Positions 1-5,091 of a DNA stretch of 5,091 bases are shown piece after piece. Below the pieces are notes generated by a model that was given only the letters and a program-made list of their open reading frames with translations, searched no databases and was not told the origin of the DNA. Source of the DNA: an uncultured Polaromonas sp. (lineage in GTDB: Bacteria; Pseudomonadota; Gammaproteobacteria; Burkholderiales; Burkholderiaceae); contig CAMLDT010000237.1 in the NCBI GenBank assembly GCA_946479075.1, positions 1 to 5,091 on the forward strand, read 5' to 3'. Numbering within the stretch: position 1 is the first letter of the stretch; each line of letters opens with the position of its first letter. The position numbers were made by a program, and so were the translations under genes.

Positions 1-19
1 AGTGAGCCTGGATGGGGGG

Positions 20-1192
20 TTACTTATTCTTCCCGGGATCCTTGACGTCCTTGATCACGTCAAATTCCACGTTGTAGAGCTGACCGTCCTTTTTCTCGAC
101 CTTGCGCAGGTAGACGTTCTGGACGATGTCGCGGGTTTGTGCATCAATGAACACCGGGCCGCGCGGGCTTTCGAAGATCTGGCCCTTCATCGCAGCCAGC
201 AGGCCGTCGCCGCCGCCCTTGCCGCCGCTCTTCTTGAGCGCTTCGTAGATCACGCGCATGCCGTCATAACCGCCCACGGCCATGAAGTTGGGACGCAGGT
301 TTTTGTTGGCCTTCTGGAAGGCTTCGACGAACTTTTTGTTCATGGGCGAGGGGTGCGCGGCCGAGTAGTGGTGCGAGGTGACCACGCCCAGCGCGCCGTC
401 ACCCATGTCGTTCAACTGGTCGTCATCGGTCACGTCGCCGGTGGCGATCAGCTTGATGCCGGCCTTGTCGAGGCCGCGCTCCAGGAACTGCTTCATCACG
501 GCGGCGCCCGCGCCCGAGGGCACGAAAACGAACAGCGCATCCGGCTTGGCATCACGCACCTTTTGCAGGAAAGGCGCGAAGTCGGGGTTGCGCAGCGGCA
601 CGCGCAGTTGCTCGGTCACCTGGCCACCATTGAAGGTCAGGCGGTCCTTGAAATACTTCTCGGCATCAATGCCCGGGCCGTAGTCGGACACCAGGGTCAC
701 GACCTTCTTGATGCCATTCTTCGGCGCCCAGTCGGCCAGCGCGACAGACACCTGCGGCAGCGTGAAGCTCGAACGCACGATGTAAGGCGAGGCTTCCGTG
801 ATGCTGGACGTGGCGGCGGCCATCACCACCAGCGGGGTCTTGGACTGCGTGGCAATCGGCGCGGTGGCCAGCGCCGACGGCGTGATGCCGAAACCGGCCA
901 GCACGTTGACCTTGTCGTTGACCACCAGCTCCTGCGCCAGGCGCTTGGTTACATCGGGCAGGCTGGTGTCGTCCTTGACGATGAGCTGGATTTTCTTGCC
1001 GGCCACGGTGTCGCCGTTTTGCGCCATGTACAGGCGGGCGGCGGCCTCGATCTGGCGGCCGGTGCTGGCCTGCTGCCCGGTCATGGGCAGGATCAGGCCG
1101 ATCTTGAACACATTGTCCTGCGCGTGGGCGGGCACAGCGGCCAGGCTGGCGACAGCGAGGGCCAGGGCGGTGAAGGTTCTTCTTTGCAGCAT
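20..1192 (-). CDS. ABC transporter substrate-binding protein, type I (LivK-like, Peripla_BP_6)
   Basis: This 390-residue periplasmic protein would capture a small ligand and deliver it to an ABC importer. It begins with a clear Sec signal peptide: MLQRR, a hydrophobic Ala/Leu/Val core at about residues 8-20, and a PAHA|Q cleavage site after residue 24. The mature protein opens with FKIGLILPMTGQ (29-40), the hallmark first strand of the type I periplasmic binding fold. It continues with the family's usual segments: GITPSALATAPIA (102-114), a 'VSDYGPG' segment (168-174), PDALFVFVPSGAGA (217-230) and GGYDGM (307-312). Length is normal for the family. I chose ATG at 1192 because GGAGA lies 5 nt upstream and the signal peptide starts there; a longer open frame upstream reads through the intergenic region. 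No permease or ATPase gene is in the window. Position behind an aromatic oxygenase and reductase suggests an aromatic acid ligand, but family members also bind branched-chain amino acids and amides, so the ligand is open. Confidence 0.93.
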   Translation of the reverse strand: MLQRRTFTALALAVASLAAVPAHAQDNVFKIGLILPMTGQQASTGRQIEAAARLYMAQNGDTVAGKKIQLIVKDDTSLPDVTKRLAQELVVNDKVNVLAGFGITPSALATAPIATQSKTPLVVMAAATSSITEASPYIVRSSFTLPQVSVALADWAPKNGIKKVVTLVSDYGPGIDAEKYFKDRLTFNGGQVTEQLRVPLRNPDFAPFLQKVRDAKPDALFVFVPSGAGAAVMKQFLERGLDKAGIKLIATGDVTDDDQLNDMGDGALGVVTSHHYSAAHPSPMNKKFVEAFQKANKNLRPNFMAVGGYDGMRVIYEALKKSGGKGGGDGLLAAMKGQIFESPRGPVFIDAQTRDIVQNVYLRKVEKKDGQLYNVEFDVIKDVKDPGKNK

Positions 1193-1215
1193 GGTGGTCT
1201 CCGGGGGTTCAAAAA

Positions 1216-1246
1216 ATGAAAAAGCGGAACGTGAAAATTTCGTCAA
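1216..1246 (-). promoter_or_regulatory. Possible promoter for the substrate-binding protein gene
   Basis: On the minus strand, TTGACG (1246-1241) matches five of six bases of a sigma-70 -35 box. The best -10 candidate is TTTCAT (1221-1216), four of six matches but with a long 19-nt spacer; the better-spaced TTTTTC (1223-1218) matches poorly. It would give a leader of about 15-20 nt including the GGAGA ribosome site. The binding protein could equally be read from upstream operon transcripts. Weak prediction. Confidence 0.3.
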
Positions 1247-1256
1247 CTCGTGACTA

Positions 1257-1272
1257 TCGCCTCGAAAGGCGA
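1257..1272 (-). repeat. Small UUCG-loop hairpin upstream of the substrate-binding protein gene
   Basis: The minus strand reads TCGCCT-TTCG-AGGCGA, a perfect 6-bp stem closed by a UUCG tetraloop. A further AGGCG at 1285-1281 could pair with the same CGCCT, so two mutually exclusive hairpins are possible. No T-run follows, so it is not a standard intrinsic terminator. It sits in the 166-bp gap (1193-1358) between the reductase stop and the binding-protein start. In an operon transcript it could act as an RNA-processing or stability element. Confidence 0.45.
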
Positions 1273-1358
1273 GGATCGTACGCCTTATTTCAGGCTTACA
1301 GCTATAACAAACCCGTATATCGCCGAGGCCGGCGTGGTCGTTGCGGCGCTGGCCAGCG

Positions 1359-2345
1359 TCAGTCGGGCCGCCAGGCCGAGTCCAGTGTGATGCAGCCCGA
1401 CACGCGTGAGACACAGGCACAGATGCGGCGGTTTTCCTGCTTCTCGTGCGGGCTCAAGAACACGTCGCGGTGATCGGCTTCGCCCTCCAGGGCCAGCACA
1501 TCCATGGCGCACAGGCCGCACTCGCCGCGGCGGCAATCGGCAATCGCTTCCACGCCGGCCTGCTCCAGCGCGTCCAGCAAGGTGGTGTCGGGCGCGACCA
1601 TGATGTCCACATCGTGGCGCGGTACCCGCACGCGGAAGGCCTGAACGGGTAGCCGCCCGCTGCTGCCGAAGGTTTCAAAACGCAGATCCGCCGGCGAGCG
1701 CCCTGCCCCGCTCCAGGCCGCCTTGATGGCTTCGAGCATGGGCACCGGGCCGCAGGTGTAAAGCTGCGCGCCAGCAGGCAGCGCCGCGATCTCGGCGGCC
1801 AGGTCCATGGTTTCGTTGCGCTCGCCGACAAAGGTCTGCAGCGCCTTCCCCAGGGTCTCACGCAGCAGCGGCAACAAGGCCAGCTCGTCCTGCGTGCGCG
1901 CGCCGTACAACATGCGCAAGGTGGCGCCGGTGCGTGCGGCATGCGCCTGCAGTTGCTGCGCCATCATCATCAGCGGCGTGATGCCGATGCCGCCGGCCAC
2001 CAGCAGGTAATGCGGCGCCGACAGGTCCAGCGCGAAATGGTTTTGCGGTTCGCTCACGGCCAGCGTGTCGCCTACCGCCAGCCGCCACATCGCCTGCGAG
2101 CCGCCGCGGCCGTCGTCCATGCGTTTGACGGCGATGCGGTAGCGCTCGCCGTCCGGCACCCCCACCAGCGAATAACTGCGGATCTGCGCCCGGCCATTGA
2201 CCATCACTTCCATCTGCAGATGCGCGCCGGCCTGCCAGGCCACGGCGCTGCCCGCCACCGGCTGGATCTCGAACTCGCGCACCGTCGGTGTCAGGTCGCG
2301 CAGGGCCACCACCGTGGCGGGGTACAGGGTTGTATTGCTTTTCAT
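1359..2345 (-). CDS. VanB-like oxidoreductase: FMN/NAD(P)H and 2Fe-2S reductase of a Rieske oxygenase
   Basis: This 328-residue protein has the phthalate dioxygenase reductase / vanillate O-demethylase reductase layout. An FMN-binding ferredoxin-reductase barrel comes first, with RSYSLVG at 57-63, the FMN/isoalloxazine signature. A nucleotide-binding domain follows, with GGIGITPLMMMA (118-129) and YTCGPVPML (196-204). A C-terminal plant-type 2Fe-2S ferredoxin domain ends the protein, with C271, C276 and C279 in CRRGECGLC and a fourth ligand at C309 or C311. Such proteins carry electrons from NAD(P)H through FMN and the cluster to the Rieske centre of a partner oxygenase, in the cytoplasm. The obvious partner is the oxygenase encoded at 3272-4375, on the same strand. 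The ATG at 2345 has no evident Shine-Dalgarno sequence, but the N-terminus starts at the usual place for the family. The gene is separated from the regulator gene by 123 bp carrying an inverted repeat. Family assignment is firm; vanillate specificity is not shown. Confidence 0.93.
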   Translation of the reverse strand: MKSNTTLYPATVVALRDLTPTVREFEIQPVAGSAVAWQAGAHLQMEVMVNGRAQIRSYSLVGVPDGERYRIAVKRMDDGRGGSQAMWRLAVGDTLAVSEPQNHFALDLSAPHYLLVAGGIGITPLMMMAQQLQAHAARTGATLRMLYGARTQDELALLPLLRETLGKALQTFVGERNETMDLAAEIAALPAGAQLYTCGPVPMLEAIKAAWSGAGRSPADLRFETFGSSGRLPVQAFRVRVPRHDVDIMVAPDTTLLDALEQAGVEAIADCRRGECGLCAMDVLALEGEADHRDVFLSPHEKQENRRICACVSRVSGCITLDSAWRPD

Positions 2346-2386
2346 GATGAGATCAGTTGTTCAAAAACGGGGGCTTCATGCCCTCA

Positions 2387-2458
2387 CCGTTCGGGCTGAG
2401 CCTGTCGAAGCCTGCTCCGAGCTTGGCTGAAGCCCTTCGACAGGCTCAGGGCGAACGG
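2387..2458. repeat. Imperfect long inverted repeat (REP-like dispersed palindrome)
   Basis: The left arm (2387-2410) begins CCGTTCGGGCTGAGCC and the right arm (2435-2458) ends GGCTCAGGGCGAACGG. The arms are complementary at 22 of 24 positions, the two mismatches falling in the GGG/GGG stretch. The loop is 24 nt. The repeat fills most of the gap between the GntR stop (2469) and the reductase start (2345). The core CTGAGCCTGTCGAAG is a palindromic repeat I recall as frequent between genes of Comamonadaceae and other proteobacteria; that is memory, not a search. There is no T-run on either side, so it is not a typical intrinsic terminator, but the folded RNA could attenuate or stabilise the transcript between the two genes. 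Confidence 0.85.
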
Positions 2459-2468
2459 CAACTGGTGT

Positions 2469-3269
2469 TCAGCCACGCCTTCGGATCAGCTTCATCGCTT
2501 TCAGGGATTCCGGCATGTGCGCGCCGGGCTGGCCTGACAGCGCATGCCGCAGGTTGCGCTGCGCCAGCCGCGAGTGTTCGCGCATCAGCGCCTCGGCGCG
2601 TGTGCCCTCGCCACGTTCGATGGCGTCCAGCACCTGCCAGTGCTGGTCTTGCGCCACCACCAGCATGTCGCGCGCCTGCGGCGAGTTCGACTGCACCACC
2701 ACAAAGGCAGAAGGCGAGGCAAACGGCAGGCTCACCGTGCGTTCCAGCTGGCGCACCGTGACCGGGCTGTCGGCCATCTCGTACAGCAGCGCGTGAAAAC
2801 GTTCGTTGAAATCGACATAGGCCGAAAAAGCCTCGTCGGTCAGCGCCGGGTCGGCCAGCACCGCATCGACCTGGCGCAGGCACTCGCGCGCCTCGGCCAG
2901 CACCACGGCGGGGGCGCCGCGTTCGGCCGCCAGCCGCACCAGCAGGCCTTCCAGCGTGCCACGCAGCTCGATGGCGTCGGCGATGTCGCGCTCTGAAAAC
3001 GCCTTGACCGCATAACCGCCATTGGGCAGCGCCTCCAGCAGGCCTTCCTGCTCCAGCCGCATCAGCGCCGCACGTATCGGGGTGCGCGACACGCCTATGC
3101 GCTCGACGATGGCCAGTTCGGCAATGCGCGTGCCGCCGGCCAGTTCGCCTGACAGAATCAGCTCACGCAGCCGCAGCAGCGCCCGCACCTGCGCACTTTC
3201 AATGCCATTTTGGCCTTCAGCCCCCGCCAGCTCTGCGCCAGCAGCTACATTTTTGATAGCGTTTGCCAT
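2469..3269 (-). CDS. GntR-family transcriptional regulator, FCD (FadR/VanR) subfamily
   Basis: This 266-residue cytoplasmic DNA-binding protein probably represses the surrounding catabolic genes until an aromatic ligand binds. Residues about 27-90 form the GntR winged helix-turn-helix: LRELILSGELAGGTRIAELA, then VSRTPIRAALMRLEQEGLL (60-78), then the wing NGGYAVKAF. The rest is an all-helical FCD ligand domain. Its likely metal/ligand positions are N155 and H159 (NERFH), H210 (DQHWQVLDAI) and H232 (REHSRLA). The usual Asp of the FCD D-x3-H motif appears as Asn, which occurs in some relatives. I chose ATG at 3269, 2 nt after the oxygenase TAA, with a G-rich GGGCGG stretch upstream; this suggests translational coupling. 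A GTG start 28 codons upstream would overlap the oxygenase gene. Residues 1-25 are an Ala/Gly-rich extension that looks repeat-derived. VanR, which controls vanAB, belongs to this subfamily. Confidence 0.93.
   Translation of the reverse strand: MANAIKNVAAGAELAGAEGQNGIESAQVRALLRLRELILSGELAGGTRIAELAIVERIGVSRTPIRAALMRLEQEGLLEALPNGGYAVKAFSERDIADAIELRGTLEGLLVRLAAERGAPAVVLAEARECLRQVDAVLADPALTDEAFSAYVDFNERFHALLYEMADSPVTVRQLERTVSLPFASPSAFVVVQSNSPQARDMLVVAQDQHWQVLDAIERGEGTRAEALMREHSRLAQRNLRHALSGQPGAHMPESLKAMKLIRRRG
3198..3260 (-). repeat. Possible dispersed intergenic-type repeat absorbed into the GntR reading frame
   Basis: On the minus strand codons 4-24 of the regulator gene include TGTAGCTGCTGGCGCA and, 10 nt later, GGGCTGAAGGCCAAAAT. 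I recall a family of short Comamonadaceae repeats built on TAGCTGCTTGCGCA, a variable spacer, and GGGCTAGAGGCCAAAAT, normally found between genes. The stretch also has local inverted pairs (GCTAT/GTAGC and GCC/GGC around AAAAT). It encodes the Ala/Gly-rich segment KNVAAGAELAGAEGQ before the DNA-binding domain. The match rests on memory. Confidence 0.45.
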
Positions 3270-3271
3270 GT

Positions 3272-4375
3272 TTATGCCGCCCGCCGGATGGGGATCACCG
3301 GCGTTGGCGAGGTTTCTTTGGCCACCATGCGGTCGATCAGGCGCCGCGCCCACATGGAGCCGGCGTCGATGTTGAGGTTGTAGAACTGGTGATCGGGGTG
3401 TTCGTCCATGGCAATCTGCTGCGCCTCCAGCACATGTTCGTCCTCGCGGAAGATCGTCGCCACACCTTCGCGCAGCTTGTGCGTCAGCGCCTGTTCACCG
3501 AGGCAGTAGTTGCGCGCAAACGCCCAGAAGTAGTGGCAGCTGCCGTTGGTCTCGGGCGTGATGGTGTTGAGCACAAAACCGTTGACGCCCTTGCTGCGGT
3601 CGCCGGGCTGGCCGTCTTTGGGCACCGCGCCGCTGCCGGCCTCGGCCACCCCGACGTCGATGGTCACGGTGCACGGTGCCTCGAAGCGGATGACCTGCCA
3701 GCGGTCCACCGGGCCGGTGTAGTTGCGCGCATGGCGGATCTGCCCGGCCCAGAAAGGCGGCGCCTCGATGCCTTCCATCCAGCGCGTCACAGTGGCCGTG
3801 CGGTCGCCGTGGGTCGCGACAAACGGCGCTTCGGCCACCTCTCGGTTGCCGATGCTGCTGCCATGCACAAAGGCTTCATGCGTCAGGTCCATCAGGTTGT
3901 CCACCACCAGGCGGTAGTCGCACTTCACGGTGATGAGTTTGCCGTCGCCGGCCCAGGCCGGGTCGTCGTTCCAGTGCATGTCGGGCACCAGGGCCGGGTC
4001 GGCCTGGGCCGGGTCGCCGGGCCAGATCCAGACGAAGCGGTGTTTCTCGACGATGGGGTAACTGCGCACGCAGGCCGAGGGATTCAGCGTTTCCTGGCTG
4101 GGCATGTGGGTGCAGCGGCCCTGCGCGTTGTACACCAGGCCGTGGTAACCGCAGGTCACCTCGTCGCCCTTCAGATGGCCCATGGACAGCGGCAGCAGCC
4201 GGTGCCAGCAGGCGTCTTCCAGCGCCGCGACGGTGCCGTCGGTCTTGCGGAACATCACGATTTTCTGGTTGCAGATGGTGCGCGGCAGCAGCGCATTGAC
4301 CATCTCCACGTCATAGGCAGCGGCGTACCAGGCGTTGAGCGGGAACGAAGGTTTGGAGGCTTTGTCGGCTTTCAT
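3272..4375 (-). CDS. VanA-like Rieske non-haem iron aromatic oxygenase (probable O-demethylase)
   Basis: This 367-residue cytoplasmic oxygenase closely resembles VanA, the oxygenase component of vanillate O-demethylase. The N-terminal Rieske 2Fe-2S domain has C56-W-H58, 16 residues, then C75-GY-H78. The catalytic domain has DNLMDLTHEAFVHGSSIG (159-176), giving bridging Asp163, iron ligands His166 and His171, and a likely third ligand Asp312 in FRED. VanA-type landmarks include PLNAWYAAAYD near the start, WIWPGDPAQADPAL, EAPPFW, PVDRWQVIRFEAP, ITPE and LNIDAG followed by RRLIDR. Such enzymes use electrons from a VanB-type reductase and O2 to remove the methyl of an aryl methoxy group as formaldehyde; relatives attack dicamba or methyl-sulfonates. 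The substrate is therefore unproven. Trp replaces the usual Pro in the CxH motif. The ATG at 4375 is preferred over a TTG 13 codons upstream, which would lie inside the predicted promoter. No clear ribosome site precedes it. It heads a minus-strand operon. Confidence 0.93.
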   Translation of the reverse strand: MKADKASKPSFPLNAWYAAAYDVEMVNALLPRTICNQKIVMFRKTDGTVAALEDACWHRLLPLSMGHLKGDEVTCGYHGLVYNAQGRCTHMPSQETLNPSACVRSYPIVEKHRFVWIWPGDPAQADPALVPDMHWNDDPAWAGDGKLITVKCDYRLVVDNLMDLTHEAFVHGSSIGNREVAEAPFVATHGDRTATVTRWMEGIEAPPFWAGQIRHARNYTGPVDRWQVIRFEAPCTVTIDVGVAEAGSGAVPKDGQPGDRSKGVNGFVLNTITPETNGSCHYFWAFARNYCLGEQALTHKLREGVATIFREDEHVLEAQQIAMDEHPDHQFYNLNIDAGSMWARRLIDRMVAKETSPTPVIPIRRAA

Positions 4376-4385
4376 GGATACGCAC

Positions 4386-4414
4386 TGTATACATAAACCA
4401 CCAAAAATCAACAA
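4386..4414 (-). promoter_or_regulatory. Predicted sigma-70 promoter for the oxygenase operon
   Basis: On the minus strand, TTGTTG (4414-4409) and TATACA (4391-4386) are separated by exactly 17 nt. The -10 lies inside the TGTATACA palindrome, which fits control by a repressor. Transcription would start near 4379, leaving only about 4 nt before the ATG at 4375. That would make the oxygenase mRNA nearly leaderless, consistent with the lack of a ribosome binding site. Alternatively the real promoter lies further upstream. Confidence 0.45.
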
Positions 4415-4425
4415 AACTCGGCCTT

Positions 4426-4455
4426 TTGACCATTTTTATCGGGTTAATGTATCCA
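4426..4455 (+). promoter_or_regulatory. Predicted sigma-70 promoter for the MetE-like gene
   Basis: TTGACC (4426-4431) matches the -35 consensus at five of six bases. TATCCA (4450-4455), a weak -10, follows after 18 nt at the place equivalent to the TATACA of the opposite promoter, within the mirrored repeat. The leader would be about 55 nt and ends in a good ribosome site, AGGAG (4507-4511). Confidence 0.4.
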
Positions 4456-4516
4456 GTGAGGCGTTTGACTCATGCTTTAACATGGCAGCTTCGACAAGCC
4501 ATCTCCAGGAGACCCC

Positions 4517-5091
4517 ATGAGCACCCCCACCCCGCACCTGCCCGCCCGCTACGACCACGTCGGCAGCTTTTTGCGCCCCAAGTACCTGCTGGAAGCGCGT
4601 GAGCAGAAAGCCAAGGGCCAGATCACACCCGAGCAGCTGCGCCAGGTCGAAGACAAGGCCATCACCGAGATCGTCAAGTTCCAGGAAGACGTGGGCCTGA
4701 AAAGCATCACCGACGGCGAGTTCCGCCGCACCTACTTCCATGTTGATTTTCTCGAACAGATCGGCGGCGTCGAGGTCGGCATTCCCTTCACTGTCAAGCG
4801 CCCAGACGGCACGGAAGAACTGGCACCGCCGGTCATGAAAGTGGTGGACAAGGTTCGCCACGTCAAGGACATCCAGCTCGCCGACTTCCAGTACCTCAAA
4901 AGCCACGGCCACTGGGACAACACCGTGTTCGTGATCGGCGGCGACAATGGCGAGGCCTTCTACGAGCACAACTTCTCGGCACACGCGAGCTCGCTCTTTA
5001 ACGAGGTTGTGAAAGTGCCGATGATCATCCGGGCGCCAGATCTTGCGCCCGGACTCGATAGTCGGCCCGCAATGTTCCTCGATGTGCCGCC
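4517..5091 (+). CDS. MetE-like (YxjG family) methyltransferase N-terminus joined in frame to a sulfatase fragment; partial
   Basis: The frame stays open for 191 codons to the window edge. Its ATG at 4517 has AGGAG 5 nt before the spacer end. Residues 1 to about 129 match the start of cobalamin-independent methionine synthase-like proteins (COG0620, YxjG/YxjH type): YDHVGSFLRP (12-21), the helix to EIVKFQEDVGL, then ITDGEFRRTYFHVDFLEQIGG (64-84) and KVRHVKDIQLADFQYLKS. Such proteins transfer methyl groups to thiols using a zinc centre. The His/Cys/Glu/Cys zinc ligands are in the C-terminal half of the family and are absent here. Instead of the expected TPKVTIPSPT-like segment after LKS, the frame continues as a sulfatase (see 4904-5091). 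No stop or frameshift marks the switch. Either the contig is a chimera or this is a real fusion or deletion product. The methyltransferase call for the first part is firm; its acceptor and donor are unknown. The gene diverges from the oxygenase operon. Confidence 0.85.
   Translation, partial: MSTPTPHLPARYDHVGSFLRPKYLLEAREQKAKGQITPEQLRQVEDKAITEIVKFQEDVGLKSITDGEFRRTYFHVDFLEQIGGVEVGIPFTVKRPDGTEELAPPVMKVVDKVRHVKDIQLADFQYLKSHGHWDNTVFVIGGDNGEAFYEHNFSAHASSLFNEVVKVPMIIRAPDLAPGLDSRPAMFLDVP
4904..5091 (+). other. Sulfatase-family C-terminal segment within the open frame
   Basis: Residues about 127-191 of the frame read like the metal-site and following region of the sulfatase/alkaline phosphatase superfamily. 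DNTVFVIGGDNGEAFYEHN (134-152) holds the Asp-Asn (D143, N144) pair that coordinates the metal in sulfatases. It is followed by HASSLFNEVVKVPMIIRAPDL (156-176), and later a FLDVP motif (187-191) like the usual 'LDV.PT' segment. The catalytic Cys/Ser-x-Pro-x-Arg region of a sulfatase would lie well upstream and is missing. Codon choice shifts in this part, with more GCG, GCA, CTC/CTT and GAT, and fewer CTG and GAC than in the preceding codons. It runs off the window end. Confidence 0.75.

Follow-up and report, generated by a model that had tools for sequence, protein, structure and literature searches.

An in-frame methyltransferase-sulfatase junction at the end of a Polaromonas-like contig is probably a technical chimera

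The window analysed here is the complete 5,091-nt contig CAMLDT010000237.1, assigned to an uncultured Polaromonas sp., and it ends in a reading frame that raises the question of whether one gene is being read or two. This ORF (4517–5089, + strand) encodes 191 residues and is still open at the contig end. A sequence-only reading had proposed that the frame switches from a MetE/YxjG-like methyltransferase to a sulfatase, with the peptide ADFQYLKS as residues 122–129. Pfam analysis bears out the switch, since both models score above their cut-offs: PF01717 (Meth_synt_2) at residues 15–106 with 24.8 bits (cut-off 21), and PF00884 (Sulfatase) at residues 124–178 with 29.1 bits (cut-off 25). The peptide lies at 4880–4903 as proposed, and the two halves scored separately gave 25.8 bits for PF01717 and 29.0 bits for PF00884. 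That neither part is complete, as had also been noted, holds for both. The PF01717 match spans only positions 6–96 of the 324-position profile, leaving the catalytic domain incomplete and without its C-terminal end, where the zinc ligands of this family presumably lie, and the methyltransferase part ends at about residue 129 compared to about 374 aa in its relatives. The PF00884 match is limited to profile positions 221–278 of 301, and the absent N-terminal region is taken to be the metal-binding and nucleophile region of the sulfatase.

The relatives of the upstream part were identified by a scan of genome contigs using the chimeric query, which recovered 244 relatives, the best 80 of which were kept as loci. 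By title, the eight best loci belong to Polaromonas, and Polaromonas accounts for 18 of the 80 when counted by eye. The other titles are Variovorax, Ramlibacter, Rhodoferax and further Burkholderiales, or just Betaproteobacteria, Proteobacteria or Pseudomonadota. Five-gene collinearity with the window was found in 30 of the 80 loci, including L003 of Polaromonas eurypsychrophila; several of the others are not long enough to contain all five genes. The window up to 4905 looks authentic and Polaromonas-like. The features of the window are listed in Table 1.

Table 1. Predicted genes and segments of the window (L numbers designate genome loci).
Feature	Coordinates	Strand	Evidence
ABC-transporter substrate-binding protein (Peripla_BP_6)	20..1195	-	Pfam 230 bits; blastn matches in L003, L011, L016 and others
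Oxygenase reductase component (FAD/NAD/2Fe-2S)	1359..2345	-	Pfam Fer2, NAD_binding_1, FAD_binding_6; collinear in L003
GntR/FCD-family regulator	2469..3269	-	Pfam GntR and FCD; collinear in L001–L006
VanA-like Rieske oxygenase	3272..4375	-	Pfam VanA_C 166 bits, Rieske 66 bits; collinear in L001–L006
Authentic 5' part (residues 1–129) of MetE/YxjG-like methyltransferase gene	4517..4905	+	PF01717; 80 kept genome loci
Joining stretch CTTCCAGTACCTCAAAAGCCA (F-Q-Y-L-K-S in both proteins), either parent as possible source	4885..4905	+	
Foreign 186-nt end, putative internal piece of a Vicinamibacterales-like (Acidobacteriota) sulfatase gene	4906..5091	+	PF00884 29.0 bits for 4895–5089

Over residues 1–128 the frame resembles the YxjG/MetE-like 5-methyltetrahydropteroyltriglutamate--homocysteine S-methyltransferases (NF005085, NF004875; PF01717), but natural proteins of this type run to about 374 aa and the version in the window does not. 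None of the best 80 of 244 loci matches the 4517 frame past residue 136. The methyltransferase gene ends at a natural stop after 350–374 aa in 78 of them (374 aa in 59 loci, 373 in 16, 372 in two and 350 in one) and is cut by the contig end in the other two. The blastn alignment of the window ends at 4905 in 60 of the 80 loci and within 4888–4923 in all 80, the remaining ends falling at 4899 (nine loci), 4923 (five), 4900 (four), 4888 (one) and 4896 (one). Counted over ungapped positions, mean identity to the 80 loci drops from 86% over 4886–4903 to 41% over 4904–4918, and residue 130 is Q in all 80 loci compared to H in the window. The closest upstream relative, L001, exhibits 96% identity with the window over residues 1–128 and 93% over residues 1–136. 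The L001 contig itself ends 57 nt past the base matching 4905 (6389–6446); its sequence is that of a normal methyltransferase up to that point, and this early end carries no weight either for or against a chimera.

The protein search for the downstream part was aimed at the last 65 residues, and in effect the 55 residues 137–191 were scored. This search found 75 sulfatase proteins among 82 candidates, the three best of which exhibit 95–98% identity over these 55 residues. The best match (98%) is P0121, a PF00884 sulfatase of 687 aa from a Vicinamibacterales metagenome-assembled genome (MAG). Its likeness to the window extends back to F124, although residues 124–136 played no part in the search, and over residues 124–191 the two differ at only two of 68 positions (132 and 182). 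The matching region of P0121 reads TQIARLFQYLKSHGQWDNTVFVIGGDNGEAF and corresponds to residues 502–569 of 687, which is the only portion of this protein that the window holds. The long N-terminal part of P0121, with PF00884 from residue 269 on, is absent from the window. Organism names are borne by three of the 75 sulfatase matches, and all three are MAGs of the Vicinamibacterales, an order of Acidobacteriota. On this likeness, the last 186 bases are ascribed to another phylum than the rest of the contig (Acidobacteriota, Vicinamibacterales-like).

The sulfatase piece had no match in nine Polaromonas genomes (E 0.001), a search run with no known-matching genome as control. Other sulfatases were detected with the Pfam sulfatase model in all three of these nine genomes that were tried. 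Matches to the piece were found in six of 399 Burkholderiales genomes (E 1e-5) at only 32–42% identity, a result that shows only that the query can detect relatives at this level. At the DNA level, the tail (4906–5091) has no 17-, 18- or 20-mer in common with the 80 upstream-type loci. One of its 15-mers (at 4929) occurs in 16 of the 80 loci, compared to none for the reversed and the shuffled tail; its position in the three loci inspected is distant from the methyltransferase and on the reverse strand. A search of viral contigs with P0121 found no DNA of the sulfatase parent, and a degenerate pattern of the junction gave no matches in viral contigs. For plasmids, tblastn returned 76 records; identity stayed below 60% in all of them, and query coverage below 80%.

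The sequence-only reading had suggested the 9-nt stretch CTCAAAAGC (4895–4903) as the joining point. A common stretch is probable there, but the proposed length would be too short. The nearest sulfatases match from F124 (4886) in protein and most upstream relatives match through 4905 in DNA, and the overlap probably runs from 4885 or 4886 to 4905 (20–21 nt), the sulfatase side being known from protein alone. FQYLKS is held by both parent proteins in the same frame: FQYLKSQ occurs in 43 of the 80 methyltransferase loci and FQYLKSHG in seven of the 75 sulfatases, including the nearest two. The stretch 4885–4905 (CTTCCAGTACCTCAAAAGCCA) is found exactly in five of the 80 upstream-type loci, and none of the 80 carries it extended by one base to 4906 as in the window. 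The border is sharp at 4905 in DNA on the upstream side and is seen in protein only (FQYLKSHG) on the sulfatase side; the origin of the sequence is ambiguous from about 4885 and foreign from 4906. The foreign part continues for 186 nt, after which the contig ends. GC content is unchanged across the border, at 0.607 for 4517–4905 and 0.613 for 4906–5091. Between two random 5-Mb genomes, about 11 common 21-mers are expected by chance at 50% GC and about 69 at 65% GC, while for 27-mers the expectation is 0.003–0.03.

A homolog containing both parts was sought, as had been proposed earlier, among proteins of 105–334 aa, and none is present among the best 120 of 1004 matches. Extended by the remainder of a natural sulfatase, the chimera would have a length of about 309 aa (123 residues plus residues 502–687 of P0121) and so falls inside the range searched. 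The best-scoring of the 120 matches covers 71% of the query, and a joined homolog should score above it. The highest coverage among the matches listed is 81%, belonging to P0078, which past the border reads like an ordinary methyltransferase. An alignment of the two families together was given no weight, since it makes unrelated proteins line up.

The frame is thus composed of two sources that meet at a sharp border, at a peptide which both parents hold in phase. The best relatives of the parts are in different organisms, the eight best upstream loci belonging to Polaromonas and the named sulfatases to Vicinamibacterales of the Acidobacteriota. The MetE-like/sulfatase fusion is considered to be a technical artefact with a probability of about 0.92, a figure that includes a chimera formed by template switching in the laboratory. 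That it originated in assembly or library work, as opposed to a living cell, is an inference drawn from where the border lies, how short the foreign end is and the lack of a joined homolog among the matches listed. The sequence-only reading had likewise ranked a chimeric assembly at the contig end first, and this ranking is supported by the lack of a joined homolog and by the taxon comparison of the halves that it had recommended, with Polaromonas and other Burkholderiales loci upstream and Vicinamibacterales (three of three named) downstream.

Within the technical artefact, the most likely route is a join made by a de Bruijn-graph assembler at small k. The contig would consist of a Polaromonas-like fragment (1 to 4905) and 186 bases of an unrelated, Vicinamibacterales-like sulfatase gene. 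With FQYLKS in the same frame in both genes, the 20–21-mer at 4885–4905 can be common to both, provided that the codons over this stretch are identical in the sulfatase parent. At small k, a de Bruijn-graph assembler would treat the common 20–21-mer as one node, and the path would leave the methyltransferase for the sulfatase and run to the next branch, where the contig would end; reads spanning the join would be expected to be absent. Common assemblers use a smallest k of 21, and with this value a chance join of such a kind in a rich sample would be unsurprising. A review (PMC7299287) describes chimeric contigs that arise in de Bruijn-graph metagenome assemblers from k-mers common to two genomes, for species that are closely related and for sequencing errors. 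The sequence of two genomes is likewise joined through shared k-mers in those interspecies contigs; here, however, the genomes are from different phyla and the common stretch looks like chance likeness.

Some observations run counter to a technical join. An open, in-phase frame across the join is also what a real fusion would be expected to have, but the two parents both carry FQYLKS in this phase. GC content shows no step at the border, and the recurrence of the 15-mer at 4929 in the upstream-type loci exceeds that of the reversed or shuffled tail.

The chimeric DNA may instead have been made before assembly, by template switching at the common stretch during whole-genome amplification or library PCR, in which case a few genuine but artificial reads would carry it. 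Template switching also exploits short common stretches, and a foreign end of 186 nt is about the length of one short read or insert; nevertheless, the overlap of about 20 nt would suit a k-mer join well and nothing in the data indicates amplification, so this specific route is regarded as unlikely. Real illegitimate recombination, by which a fragment of an Acidobacteriota sulfatase gene was taken into the methyltransferase gene of a Polaromonas-like strain, would be compatible with a sequence that is continuous and in frame as given, and rare recombination can be guided by short homology. It is very unlikely given that the sulfatase piece is in none of the nine Polaromonas genomes (a search lacking a positive control), that no joined homolog is among the 120 listed of 1004 matches, and that the border falls on a stretch both genes can share with the contig end 186 nt further on. 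The narrower case of a real and very recent cross-phylum recombination, by which a segment of a Vicinamibacterales sulfatase gene would have entered a Polaromonas methyltransferase gene in frame at a 20–21-base chance match, is highly improbable. A new bifunctional methyltransferase-sulfatase fusion enzyme, which could account for two Pfam models above cut-off in one open frame, was rejected with next to no remaining credence because both domains are cut mid-way, the methyltransferase stopping near residue 129 where its relatives reach about 374 and the sulfatase starting at profile position 221 of 301, devoid of its N-terminal region and of the long N-terminal part of P0121.

As a matter of quality control, no trust should be placed in the final 186 bases or in a sulfatase annotation or taxon label that derives from them. 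The junction read as a technical chimera is a clear case of an in-frame pseudo-fusion between phyla, in which six residues are common and in phase in unrelated proteins. When contig ends are screened for fusion genes, a check should be made for a common word close in length to the smallest k of the assembly.

Upstream of the join, the gene order of VanA-like oxygenase, reductase, GntR/FCD regulator and substrate-binding protein with a divergent MetE-like methyltransferase is kept mostly in Variovorax and Polaromonas, as judged by the titles of the 30 collinear loci. The kept gene set may hint at an O-demethylation unit that has a methyl-transferring partner. An imperfect inverted repeat of 17 nt (88%) occupies 4383–4399 and 4442–4458 (CACTGTATACATAAACC / GGTTAATGTATCCAGTG), in the region that separates the VanA-like oxygenase gene from the divergent methyltransferase gene. 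Its motifs TATACAT and TGTAT.CA are invariant in all seven aligned sequences (the window and L001–L006), and the repeat may be an operator pair of the product of the adjoining GntR/FCD regulator gene. A second inverted repeat, of 24 nt and 92% complementary, is located between the reductase and regulator genes at 2387–2458 (CCGTTCGGGCTGAGCCTGTCGAAG). It is also present in L005 at 90% and looks like a dispersed REP-like element or a terminator hairpin.
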